Assembly: GCF_000172975.1 (NCBI RefSeq)
Contig: NZ_ABTR02000001.1
Location: forward strand, 62,001 to 126,000
Origin: Dethiosulfovibrio peptidovorans DSM 11002
GTDB lineage: Bacteria > Synergistota > Synergistia > Synergistales > Dethiosulfovibrionaceae
Reading direction: 5' to 3'
DNA length: 64,000 bases
Of the stretch, positions 43,161 through 52,678 are shown one piece after another (positions within the stretch are counted from its first letter, which is position 1; the number at the start of each line of letters is the position of its first letter). Made by a program: the position numbers and the translations under genes. The notes under the pieces were generated by a model that did no database searches, was not told the DNA's origin, and saw only the letters and a list, made by a program, of their open reading frames with translations.

Positions 43161-43292
43161 GCGTGTCTCTGTCGCACAGCCCCGAGGCGGCGTCTTTCAG
43201 AGGTCCGTCCAGCAGAGGTCCTTGTGCCTGAGAGTTTCGGCTCTAAGCCTTGCCCCTTCGGCGTTCGAATATATCGAACTCTCCCACTGCCT
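43161..43292 (-). promoter_or_regulatory. Glycine riboswitch (one aptamer plus ghost) upstream of gcvT
   Basis: On the minus strand the core shows GGGAGAG, then CGCCGAAGGGGCAAGG, GAGCCGAAACTCTCAGGCA and AAGGAC, the conserved glycine aptamer. The downstream half (CTCTGAAAGACGCC ... GCGACAGAG) keeps only a closing helix and no binding core, as in singlet riboswitches with a ghost aptamer. The closing strand CGACAGAG can also pair with CTTTGTCG just downstream. Glycine binding is expected to raise expression of the gcv genes. Confidence 0.9.
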
Positions 43293-43319
43293 TCATCCGG
43301 AAACGAAGTGTCTATAGAC

Positions 43320-45258: not shown

Positions 45259-46575
45259 CTAGTCCTCGTCCTTGAAGACCGTCTGCTCTGAGACCTCGGT
45301 CTCCAGGGCAACGAGAGCCTTGTCCACAAGGTGACGACGAAGCACCTTCTCGTCCTCAGGAGACATGTTGGGGTCTCCCAGAGGGTGAGGTATGGCGACG
45401 GTGGGAATGATCCTGTTGGCACCGACGCTGAGGGATATCGGGACGATGGTGGCCATGTGGACCACGGGAACGTCGGCGGTCTCCTCGATAGCCTTCACGA
45501 GCGTTGCACCGCAACGCGTGCAGGTTCCTCAGGTGGAGGTCAGGATAACGGCGTCTACGCCGGCTTCCTTCAGCTTATTCCCGATCTCTACACCGAACTT
45601 CTTGGCGTTTGCCACGGCCGTGCCGTTACCGACGGTGGTGTAGAAGAGATTGTGAAGGGAACCGATACGTCCCTCTTTCTCCAGATCTCTTAGGACATCC
45701 ACAGGAAGGACCCTGTCGGCGTCTTGGTTGGCATAGGTCTGATCGTATCCGCCGTGAGCTGTCTGATACTCGCCTTCCTTGAGATCCAGAACCCCGGTGA
45801 TATCGTACTCGCCGTAGTTCTGAGCGCTGGAAGCGGCGATGTGGTCCGGGTTGCCAAAAGGCACTATACCACCGGAGGTTACAATAGCGACCTTGGCGTG
45901 AGCCATATCCTTGATGGCGGGACGGGGATCTACCCTGTCGAACACAGGAAGCTTGTACTCGGTCTTGAAGGGCTCGCCCTTGAGCTTCTTGATCAGCATG
46001 TCGATGGCACGCTCGGCGCCGACCTTCTCGTAGAACATATTGATACGGACGCCCTTTTCGATGTATCCTTCTTCCTCGGGGGTCCCGATGGGCTCTCCTT
46101 TCATCAGCTTGAGCAGGAGAGAGGCCATGGCGGGCACGGCTTTGCCCATGCCGCGAGCGCTGTCGGCAGCCTCGATAACGTAGGTACCCTTCTTGTACAT
46201 CTCGGCACCGGGGTTTTCGGGATAGAGAGCGGTAACTGTGGGTATACCCAGCTTCTCTCCGACGGCGGTACATACAGCACCGCAGGCGGTGCCGTAACGT
46301 CCGGCGTTGAATCCCGGACCGGCGACGAACCCGTCGGCCTCGAACTTCTTGACGGTCTCGGCCACGAACTCGGAGGTCGAGTCGATGTTGTCGGCGAAGT
46401 AGTTGTCACCGCAGATTATGGTAGCGACCACCTCGGCCTCGCCCTTGAAAGCTCCTTTAAGAGCCATACCGGGACCGACTACGCCTTCGCGGACCTCCGG
46501 TTTGATGTCTGCCTTTTCCTCCCCGCCGATGCCGGCGAAGAACTGGTTGATGTAATGAACCACACGATAGGTCAT
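45259..46575 (-). CDS. grdB: Glycine reductase component B selenoprotein GrdB (UGA = Sec349)
   Basis: GrdB binds glycine and passes the carboxymethyl group to GrdA. The frame from the ATG at 46575 (MTYRVVHYINQFFAGIGGEE) meets an in-frame TGA at 45529-45531, then continues to a TAG at 45259, 438 aa in all. The junction reads TST-U-GTCTRCGATL, the family UxxCxxC motif, and a 7-bp hairpin lies 11 bases after the UGA. It is similar to grdH in locus 1 but clearly diverged, so the two serve different substrates. The order grdX, grdE, grdA, grdB supports glycine. It ends before the locus 2 terminator. Confidence 0.96.
45501..45517 (-). promoter_or_regulatory. Candidate bacterial SECIS hairpin of grdB
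   Basis: On the minus strand GCGTTGC and GCAACGC form a 7-bp stem with loop GGT, starting 11 bases after the UGA. Stem core and loop match the grdH hairpin. Confidence 0.75.
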
Positions 46576-48812: not shown

Positions 48813-49226
48813 CTATCGCAGGACGCCCTCTTTGTAGAGGGTTTCTTTCATAAGATCGTAGTCCAAAATGGAACAATCTCTATACATGACTTCGGGAGTC
48901 TCATCGGGAATCAGCCATCGGTCCGAGCAGGACAGATAGACCTCTATGGCCTTCTCGACCAAAGACAACGAGGTCTCGTCGACCGCAGGACGAGATTGGT
49001 CCATAGGAGCTCGGAGAAACATAGATCGAAACGGCTGATGATAAGGTCTGAAATTTCCGTAGAGAGGATGATTGAGGAGGGTCCAGCCCAAGTGAATGCG
49101 ATCCCTTGCGGCGACGACTACGTCATAAGCGGAGCCATCCAGGAAGATCAACTCGAGCCCCTCCTGATGAAGAGAGGAAAAAGCGGGATTATTGGTTATA
49201 AATACCATACGACAGTTCAAGAACAA
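48813..49226 (-). CDS. grdX: GrdX family protein
   Basis: GrdX is a conserved first gene of many glycine reductase operons; its function is unknown. The product (137 aa from TTG at 49226) has the family pattern MVFITNNPAF, FLDGSAYDVVVAARDRIHLGWTLLNHPLYGNF and PYHQPFRSMFL. The start is uncertain: an AGGGG site lies just before TTG codons at 49226 and 49220, whereas the ATG at 49208 fits the family start but is about 20 bases from that site. The start region can pair with the riboswitch (see findings). Confidence 0.9.
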   Translation of the reverse strand: MFLNCRMVFITNNPAFSSLHQEGLELIFLDGSAYDVVVAARDRIHLGWTLLNHPLYGNFRPYHQPFRSMFLRAPMDQSRPAVDETSLSLVEKAIEVYLSCSDRWLIPDETPEVMYRDCSILDYDLMKETLYKEGVLR

Positions 49227-49248
49227 ACACCCCTATTTTGGAGAAGTT

Positions 49249-49396
49249 CGTCTCTGTCGTATGGCCTTTTAGCCTATTCCAGAGTAACGTCCCGTCGCAA
49301 TCCCTTTGCCTGAGAGTTTCGACCGCATACCGGCCTTGCACCTTCGGCGCCTCCATTCCAAGAAAGCATGGATATAGAGAGGTCTCTCTTGCGACG
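49249..49396 (-). promoter_or_regulatory. Glycine riboswitch (one aptamer plus ghost) upstream of grdX
   Basis: On the minus strand the P1 helix CGTCGCAA/TTGCGACG closes an aptamer with AGAGAGACC, GCGCCGAAGGTGCAAGGC and CGAAACTCTCAGGCAAAGGGA. The 3' half (ACTCTGGAATAGG ... CATACGACAGAGACG) keeps the ghost closing helix only. The element leads straight into grdX. Glycine binding would be expected to switch on the reductase operon. Confidence 0.92.
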
Positions 49397-49414
49397 TTCA
49401 TCCGTACACTTCAG

Positions 49415-49442
49415 ATTGTACCGGAAAAGTACAGGCCGTCAA
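49415..49442 (-). promoter_or_regulatory. Promoter of reductase locus 2
   Basis: On the minus strand TTGACG (49437-49442) and TACAAT (49415-49420) are spaced by 16 bases, about 20 bases before the riboswitch. Confidence 0.8.
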
Positions 49443-50007: not shown

Positions 50008-50741
50008 AGATTCCTACAATTCGGTTATATCGTCACCATTTGAGCCCGGTCACGAAGATGTAGAGGATGGCCAGGGGCGAGACGAACTTGACGAAGATCA
50101 TCCATATGTCGAATCCGGCGAACACAGGGATCCTGCCGTTTCCAGTGACCTCGTCCTTGGCGACGTCGGCTATGACCCATCCGACAAAGATGGATATCAG
50201 CATCCCGCCAAGAGGCATCATTATCTGGTCTGTGAAGAAACCGGCCACGTCCATGAAGTCCTTGCCGGCTATCTTGAGACCGCCTCCGAGGGATATGCCG
50301 GAGGGTATACCAAGGAGAAATATCAGCGTACCCATGGTCCAGGCAGCCTTGGCACGGCTCCAGCCTTTATCTATGAAGTAGGCGCAGGCCACCTCCAGAA
50401 GGGAGATGGCAGAGGTGAGAGCCGCCACGAAGAGAAGCAGGAAGAACAGGGCAGACCATATCATTCCTCCCGGCATCTGGGCGAATATCCCAGGCAGGGT
50501 TATGAAGGTGAGACCAGGTCCCGCTCCTGGCTCGACGCCGAAAGCGAAGACCGCCGGGAATATGACCAGACCGGCGAGCAAGGCGACCATCGTATCGAGG
50601 AAACAGACCTGTGCAGCCGCTCCGGGAAGGCTGATGTCCTTCTGAAGGTAGCTGCCGTAGGTTATCATACAGCCCATCCCGAGGGAGAGGGAGAAGAACG
50701 CCTGTCCCAAAGCGGCGAGAACCGTACCGGCAGTAACCTTA

Positions 50742-52039
50742 GGGCACCTCTAGCAACCCCATATTTAGCGGTCTAAGCAGACAAAAAAGCCACAGACCAG
50801 AAACAGCGACAAATTAGGCTAAATCAGCGTTAAGATGATTCTCTATTGTCGCTCCGGTGACCTGAACAACTCGGCTTTTACCGTCATTTGGGCACGGCAG
50901 ATATCGCCCCTGACTTCATCATCAGGAACGAGAATCGAACGATGTTATAGGCCAGGTTTCTCAGTCCTATAGCGGTTGAAGCTCTGGCTTTCCCGATAGT
51001 TCGAACTATCAGGTTGCCGGCCTTCATGGTTTGGGCTCCAAAGACGTGCTCCACTCGGCTTCGGACTTTGGATCTTGTTCTGTTACCCTGTTTTTCCCAC
51101 CACGTGATGGGTTTGCCTCTGTATCCTTTTCGTTGGATCTTCGGTCTGTAGCCTTGTTCCTCAAGCCAAGAGATTTTCTCATGGCTTCTATAAGCTGAGT
51201 CGGCATAGACGTCTTTGCTGCTGTTACTGGGATCGATGAGTTCCTCGAATACATTGCTGTCGTGGACCGATGCCTCGGTTACGCTGTATTTACGGATGAT
51301 CTTGTTCTGAGAGTCGATCTCTATGTGGTTCTTGTAGCCGAAGGAGCTTTTGCCGTTTTTCTTCGTCCACCTGGCATCGGTGTCTTTTTGAGATCTCTTG
51401 TTGTCGGGCCAGTCTTCCGGTGGTTCTCCATCCTTGATCTTGCGGTTTTCATCCCGTTTGTTCCTCTGGATCGGGACCTTCACTATGGAGGCATCCACTA
51501 TCTGCCCTTTTTTTGCCTCGAAGCCGCTTTTACGGATGTGACCGTCAAAAAGATCGAACAGAGGCTTCATCAGTTCCGCCTTGGTCAGCTGCTCCCGAAA
51601 AAGCCATATAGTCTTGGCATCAGGGACTTTGGCTTCCAGGGAGAGGCCGAGAAAACGTCTGAAGGAAAGCCTGTCCCTTACCTGAAACTCCATTGCGTCG
51701 TCCGACAGGTTGTACAGTGCCTGAAGCACCAGGATCTTGAACATGAGAAGAGGAGGGAAGGGCTTTCTTCCTCCCAGAGAATCCTTCTGTCTGAGCCCTT
51801 CGCGGAAGTCCTTCAACGGCTGCTCGAAGATGGACCAGTCCACCGCTTTCTCTATTCGTACCAGTGGATCGTTCACCTTTTCAAGGCTATCGTAGGCTAT
51901 TTCTTCCGCAAAGAGGCTCCGCTGTTTCAAGGGGATCCCATCCCTTCTCGAGAATTTTTGGTTACAACCGGTATTTTAACATCCCAGCCTAAACAGGGGT
52001 TTTTCTCCCTGCCAGTTAGGGGAGTTTTTAGAGATGCCC
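50742..52039 (-). mobile_element. IS5-like insertion sequence, 1298 bp
   Basis: The ends are imperfect inverted repeats: GGGCACCTCTAGCAAC on the left, GGGCATCTCTAAAAAC (complement) on the right. They are flanked by a CTTA target duplication at 50738-50741 and 52040-52043. The single transposase gene runs inward on the minus strand. The 4-base duplication and size fit the IS5 family. The element splits the NSS transporter gene. Confidence 0.92.
50884..51930 (-). CDS. IS5-family DDE transposase
   Basis: The 348-aa transposase has an N-terminal DUF772-type domain (LKDFREGLRQKDSLGGRKPFPP and LLMFKILVLQALYNLSDDAME). The catalytic core includes QIVDASIVKVP (first Asp), DVYADSAYRSHEK (second Asp) and SRVEHVFGAQTMKAG (Glu). 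The start is a TTG at 51930. The frame is intact, so the element may be active. A long open frame on the opposite strand is a shadow. Confidence 0.93.
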   Translation of the reverse strand: MKQRSLFAEEIAYDSLEKVNDPLVRIEKAVDWSIFEQPLKDFREGLRQKDSLGGRKPFPPLLMFKILVLQALYNLSDDAMEFQVRDRLSFRRFLGLSLEAKVPDAKTIWLFREQLTKAELMKPLFDLFDGHIRKSGFEAKKGQIVDASIVKVPIQRNKRDENRKIKDGEPPEDWPDNKRSQKDTDARWTKKNGKSSFGYKNHIEIDSQNKIIRKYSVTEASVHDSNVFEELIDPSNSSKDVYADSAYRSHEKISWLEEQGYRPKIQRKGYRGKPITWWEKQGNRTRSKVRSRVEHVFGAQTMKAGNLIVRTIGKARASTAIGLRNLAYNIVRFSFLMMKSGAISAVPK

Positions 52040-52678
52040 CTTAGAGAAATCGGGTTTGAGGTAGAATGAGATACCCTCCCCTGCTCCCTCCAGAGTGACG
52101 GAACGTCCGATTAGAACTATCAGAAGGATGAAAAGCCCGGGCATGAGGACCTTGCAGTAACGCTCTATCCCCTCGCCGACCCCTCTGTAGACGACCCAGA
52201 TGGTGATGAACATGAACAGAGCCTGATACAGTATTACCATTATGGGATTGGAGATAAAGCCTCCGAAGGCATCTCCAGCCTGACCGGCTGCGGCAAGCTC
52301 CATGAGCCCGGTAAACGAGTGGAGGATATACTTTATAGTCCAGCCTCCTACGACACCGTAGTAGGAGAGGATGAGAGCGCCGCAGGCGAGCCCCAACCAA
52401 CCTACCGCCGGCCAGGCGCCGCCCTTTATTTTCTTGAAAGAGCCGACCGCGTTGAGCTGGGCGTTACGGCCTATGACCAACTCCGCCAACATGACGGAAA
52501 AACCGATACAGGCGACCATGGCCACGTATATTACGACGAAGGCTCCGCCGCCGTTCGTACCCGTAACGTAAGGAAATTTCCATATGTTTCCCAGACCGAC
52601 GGCGGATCCCGCCGCGGCGAGAATAAAGCCTATCTTGCTTCCCCACTGTTCTCTCTGCTGCTCTACCTGATTCGCCAT

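Follow-up and report, generated by a model that had tools for sequence, protein, structure and literature searches.

The grdX locus and its leader

The window, a 64,000-nucleotide stretch of the Dethiosulfovibrio peptidovorans DSM 11002 genome, carries grdX on its minus strand (48813-49220 from the proposed TTG start). The predicted product begins with M-N-C-R-M-V-F-I-T-N-N and matches NCBIfam GrdX (NF038093) with 91.6 bits, for a cut-off of 40. The ORFs downstream of grdX, among which a SECIS_4 element is found at 45491-45528, are presumably glycine reductase genes, named by their position. Upstream of grdX, on the same strand, lies a single glycine aptamer (49288-49401; RF00504, 68.2 bits for a gathering score of 32). 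RF03166 (glycine-GGAnGA) reached 76.8 bits over 49250-49405, below its gathering score of 110; this assignment was rejected and the locus is therefore not classed as glycine-GGAnGA. Just upstream of the aptamer, a pattern scan gave a sigma-70-like promoter, TTGACG-16-TACAAT (49415-49442, minus strand; 10 of 12 matches), which is weak by itself because 0.8 such matches are already expected in shuffles.

The aptamer is followed by a ghost aptamer (49252-49284, minus strand) composed of a closing helix, CTCTG (49284-49280) with CAGAG (49256-49252), and a short inner stem. Its folding energy is -8.5 kcal/mol. The closing helix is also present as a helix in the Rfam model RF03166, and the CTCTG...GACAG motif was found again in most of the grdX leaders that we fetched. 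Of the putative tertiary contacts between aptamer and ghost, these conserved letters are what the sequence shows. One RF00504 match before grdX, with the CTCTG/CAGAG ghost helix 3' of it, is the layout of a type-1 singlet. We consider it likely that the leader serves a type-1 singlet glycine riboswitch as its expression platform, with control over grdX and the presumed glycine reductase genes that follow.

Elsewhere in the window, a sodium-dependent transporter gene looks split by an insertion: its two fragments (50033-50710 and 52028-52678) flank an IS5-family transposase gene (50884-51930).

Two partners for the ghost 3' strand

The segment CCATACGACAG (49264-49254, minus strand) is the exact reverse complement of CTGTCGTATGG (49215-49205) over 11 nucleotides, and a flanking G-U pair (49265/49204) extends the helix to 12 bp. 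The 5' arm, GCCATACGACAG (49254-49265), is shared with the ghost 3' strand; it is supported by complementarity and folding, by the cognate test and by covariation (see below). The 3' arm, CTGTCGTATGGT (49204-49215), covers positions +6 to +17 from TTG 49220, within codons 2-6 of grdX. None of 2000 dinucleotide shuffles of the 96-nt segment contained a perfect inverted repeat of 11 bp, the longest being 10 bp (6 cases). Bases 49256-49254 are claimed twice, because CAGAG 49256-49252 pairs with CTCTG 49284-49280 in the ghost. The perfect complementarity of the ghost strand with the grdX start region, and its incompatibility with the ghost closing helix, had both been proposed in a sequence-only reading of this DNA, and both hold.

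That reading also placed an AGGGG site and TTG starts in an intervening loop. The Shine-Dalgarno-like AGGGG (49230-49234) and TTG 49220, 9 nt after it, are indeed there, but the segment is folded rather than open. CTCC (49243-49240) pairs with GGGG (49233-49230) of the Shine-Dalgarno (SD) sequence and 49253-49246 pairs with 49228-49220, giving a local stem-loop (49220-49253) of -11.0 kcal/mol alone. Because the intervening segment pairs internally, folding of 49285-49185 yields one 62-nt hairpin (49265-49204; -29.3 kcal/mol alone) that buries the SD, the start codon and codons 2-6. An alternative helix hiding the translation start is thus found, and it is conserved with covariation. Sequence and comparison show that the ghost 3' strand can pair in two ways that exclude each other, with the ghost 5' strand or with the grdX start region and first codons. 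We regard the alternative helix, and the fact that it competes with the ghost, as well supported.

The same exchange may occur in the gcvT leader of the window (minus strand). This leader carries a second glycine aptamer (43206-43296) and a ghost formed by CTCTG (43202-43198) and CAGAG (43171-43167), and the possibility arises from the complementarity between its ghost strand CGACAGAG (43174-43167) and CTTTGTCG (43155-43148).

The start codon of grdX

In relatives of the window type, grdX starts 24 nt before the conserved T-N-N codons, with ATG, GTG or TTG, and the N-terminus often reads M-S-C-R-x-(V/I/L)-L-(I/V)-T-N-N. The corresponding position in the window is TTG 49220, with AGGGG (49234-49230) nine bases upstream. 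The ATG within the paired segment (49208-49206), first taken for the grdX start, is in frame and has no SD. By comparison with the relatives, TTG 49220 is probably the start and ATG 49208 is probably codon 5.

A single in-frame TGA is observed in grdX of L056-L059, L097-L099, L108, L122, L113 and L126-L127, which belong to unrelated genera (f2, f10, g53). It sits at differing places of the N-terminal part. Selenocysteine is a possible reading of this codon, the carriers being selenoprotein users.

Cognate pairing across Synergistota

In a phylum search of 188 genomes, grdX was found in 120 and glycine aptamers in 119, the two being adjacent in most cases. One hundred leaders were fetched, and the strand surrounding the ghost CAG of every leader was paired with the region before T-N-N. 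Over 42 genera, the mean energy of cognate duplexes is -15.7 kcal/mol versus -12.3 kcal/mol for permuted partners (p <= 5e-5, z -7.6). When each family is represented by a single genome, the values are -19.6 and -13.9 kcal/mol (p <= 5e-5). Within Dethiosulfovibrio (G111-G113), the ghost strand is almost unchanged and the matching segment has shifted onto the start codon. This comparison shows that selection has maintained the ghost-to-start pairing in many genera.

The helix is not a general rule. Ten f6 genera gave no cognate signal (p = 0.70), and the helix is missing in f6 genera g12, g13, g16 and g18-g25. Several f6 leaders (L060, L064, L066, L067, L074, L082, L086) carry GTCCGG just before the SD, and their ghost strand is not paired with the start. 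Pairing of this GTCCGG with the 3' strand of aptamer P1 (p = 0.075) is suggestive of a different platform for grdX in these genera. In f10 leaders (L097-L099, L108, L122, L124-L125), a near-invariant hairpin ACCTATTC...GAATAGGGGGT covers the SD directly 3' of the ghost, in what looks like a third kind of platform.

Covariation of the two arms

Covariation was measured in two sets of leaders. In f8, nine pairs were counted over 12 leaders, whose N-terminal peptide differs (for example M-G-L-S-S-F-S-Y). Standard pairs occupy 96.3% of cells, and 45-66% after sliding the partner by 1 to 3 columns. Both sides change at 4 of the 9 pairs, with 15 double-changed cells versus 5.8 in shuffles and a covariation of 0.455 versus 0.236. 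The second set comprises 19 leaders in the register of the window, among them those of two Desulfovibrionaceae and of Candidatus Adiutrix. The pair beside CGAC/GTCG is G-C in 11, A-U in 5, and U-A, G-U and unpaired in one each. Its 3' base is the third (wobble) position of an Arg codon and tracks the ghost base. Two f7 genera by themselves show both A-U and U-A at this pair. Covariation in the window register is 0.233 versus 0.124, and none of 500 shuffles reaches the observed value. As many alignment rows are related, independent changes are fewer than these counts. The four inner pairs (C-G, G-C, A-U, C-G) never vary and are thus uninformative; ghost structure and protein sequence alone could be sufficient cause for them. 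In alignments A2 and A3 the arms were anchored and kept free of gaps, and A3 has an artificial AAAA spacer between them. They thus test fixed registers only and omit leaders that contain indels or use another register, G112 for example. The comparison of other grdX leaders that the sequence-only reading had called for is therefore positive in the cognate test, in f8 and in the window register. The competition of the ghost aptamer with the start region, proposed there, is supported by these comparisons.

In the Desulfobacterota (L140, L143, L147 and L176; Desulfovibrionaceae and Ca. Adiutrix), the riboswitch and grdX are found together with a ghost-codon pairing GCGCGAC/GTCGCGC, which suggests that leader and gene were moved together by transfer.

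Coding sequence probably shaped by the pairing

Riboswitch-free grdX paralogs start with M-I-I-T-N-N, M-R-I-L-S-N-N and the like. They lack four to seven extra N-terminal codons, and these extra codons are those that form the 3' arm. Codon choice goes with the pairing: in the AT-rich genus g11, the paired codons are CGC AAG/ATG CTC CTC, with GC-ending CGC, CTC and CTC, whereas GC3 is 0.27-0.37 in the remaining gene. In Pyramidobacter, the arm is followed by TTT ATT TTG, with a GC3 of 0.79-0.80 otherwise. A tentative reading, slightly short of probable, is that the platform, half ghost and half coding sequence, may have moved between translational sequestration and termination within the ORF across the phylum, adding and shaping the first four to seven grdX codons, in peptide and in synonymous choice, so that the pairing was kept.

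Energetics and a model for switching

Forcing the ghost helix costs 9.7 kcal/mol with respect to the hairpin (secondary-structure energy). In the ghost state, the start codon is 82-99% unpaired and most of codons 2-5 are open. The proposal that the ghost helix frees the start region stands for the start codon and codons 2-6 but not for the SD, which stays within the local hairpin of -11.0 kcal/mol; the ON state is for this reason maybe only partial. In partition-function folds of a transcript growing from 49412, the ghost helix makes up over 90% of the ensemble while the 3' end lies within 49252-49224, and 53-62% by 3' end 49216. The ghost is favoured for 3' ends from 49252 to 49212, and the hairpin takes over at 49210. 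The order of synthesis thus gives the ghost the first chance, and it is at this stage that glycine would need to act. Since the complete hairpin is favoured by 9.7 kcal/mol, switching at equilibrium is improbable, and the switch has to be taken as kinetic. The gap amounts to only 0.3-7.2 kcal/mol in f6 genera g10-g17 and g27.

In the model that we propose, the ghost helix would be the first to fold as the RNA is made. The aptamer would then bind glycine, and aptamer-ghost contacts would keep the ghost helix while the 3' arm emerges. The start codon and codons 2-6 would remain open and grdX would be translated. Without glycine, the emerging codons CTGTCGTATGG would invade the ghost, and the 62-nt hairpin would bury the SD, the start codon and the early codons. 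The block is most likely translational in Dethiosulfovibrio. In Pyramidobacter and several other genera, where the hairpin is followed by a T tract, it may also terminate transcription inside the ORF. We infer both the role of glycine and the stage at which control is exerted, and a cotranscriptional glycine ON switch, translational in this genus, is in our view the probable mode of action. The choice made by the ghost strand is very probably the on/off switch of grdX, as related bacteria preserve it through mutations that match on both sides. The ON logic fits the physiology and the induction of the C. difficile grd operon by glycine (PMC11477304).

Termination and other explanations

The main competing view is that the hairpin is chiefly an intrinsic terminator whose stem ends in the first grdX codons, the ghost helix being the antiterminator as in clostridial leaders. 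In 12 of 28 genera, the T tract directly behind the 3' arm is among the top 5% within its own CDS, with TTTTTTTT in g36, TTTTTTT in g5 and TTTTATTTTG in Pyramidobacter, the last despite 79-80% G/C at third positions. Moreover, the ghost strand of Acetoanaerobium supplies the 5' arm for an ordinary terminator in the leader. Our terminator scan of the 64-kb window did not list the platform hairpin, which its loop limit of 8 nt skips, and the T tail was therefore scored separately. The window tail ATTTATAACC scores 2.44 and ranks at 7.5% in its CDS, outside the top 5%. Furthermore, f6 genera having the same helix show no T tract, and the hydrophobic codons preceding T-N-N are T-rich on their own. 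We find it unlikely that termination is the main role. Translational control, as the sequence-only reading had it, is favoured here because the T tract lies outside the top 5% in the genus of the window and in f6, but it does not generalise, since in about a dozen related genera a T tract resembling that of a terminator goes with this hairpin.

The hairpin could also be a constitutive attenuator or an mRNA stability element that does not respond to glycine, with a ghost that merely scaffolds the aptamer. Its advantage of 9.7 kcal/mol over the ghost state and the pairing of the SD in either state are consistent with this. Yet the shared arm is the ghost 3' strand across families, a reuse that a constitutive hairpin would not need, and the small gap of the f6 genera cited above also argues against it; we consider such a role very improbable. 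Least credible of all is a coincidence in which ghost structure dictates GACAG and the protein dictates the Cys-Arg codons. The invariance of the four inner pairs is what such a coincidence would give, but the cognate permutation test, the double changes in f8, where the N-terminal peptide is not the same, the register shift inside Dethiosulfovibrio and the paralogs without N-terminal extension all speak against it. Chance complementarity was rejected on the cognate test and on the f8 and window-register covariation.

Comparison with known systems

The C. tetani type-1 singlet of Torgerson et al. 2018 (RNA 24:1813) reportedly uses its ghost helix as an antiterminator, with an energy gap of about 2-3 kcal/mol. 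As in that case, the grdX leader has one aptamer with a 3' ghost whose 3' strand would swap between helices, and a proposed ON logic. The differences are a leader terminator in C. tetani versus a partner arm in the start site and coding sequence here, and a computed gap of 9.7 kcal/mol.

Acetoanaerobium noterae (Clostridia, L178) also has a glycine aptamer and a ghost before grdX, with the ghost 3' strand as the 5' arm of a hairpin. There, however, the ghost strand ACAGGGAAACA forms the 5' arm of a leader terminator with TTTTTTTT. This terminator is of the ordinary kind, its T8 tail lying over 100 nt upstream of the start codon, and grdX has no N-terminal extension (M-V-I-I-T-N-N).

Type-1 singlets and ghost aptamers have already been described (PMC6944388, PMC9481103). 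The tandem glycine riboswitch of Neisseria gonorrhoeae gcvT is a translational ON switch in which aptamer 2 pairs before the start codon in the OFF state (PMC13104608). It resembles the switch proposed here in its translational ON logic and in the pairing of riboswitch nucleotides beside the start when OFF. It differs by its tandem aptamers, by pairing -1 to -11 rather than early codons, and by using nucleotides of the aptamer pocket instead of a ghost strand. The E. coli thiC TPP riboswitch also holds the start codon region in a sequestering stem and decides cotranscriptionally (PMC5234074), as in our model, but it is an OFF switch for another ligand and has no ghost aptamer.

The ghost strand as a switch element appears to be known already, and the principle looks known because C. 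tetani (reportedly), Acetoanaerobium and N. gonorrhoeae show related exchanges. Literature treating grdX together with a riboswitch makes no mention of such a platform. What is new is the partner arm in the start site and coding sequence, with its covariation. On comparative grounds, it shows that the strand that switches can come from a ghost aptamer, which is then more than a scaffold, and that its partner can be protein-coding, and it would be a clear case of an RNA switch shaping a protein N-terminus and codon choice. The leader terminator of Clostridia and the start-site hairpin of Synergistota, with or without a T tract, form a natural series that is useful for studying how expression platforms shift between transcriptional and translational control.
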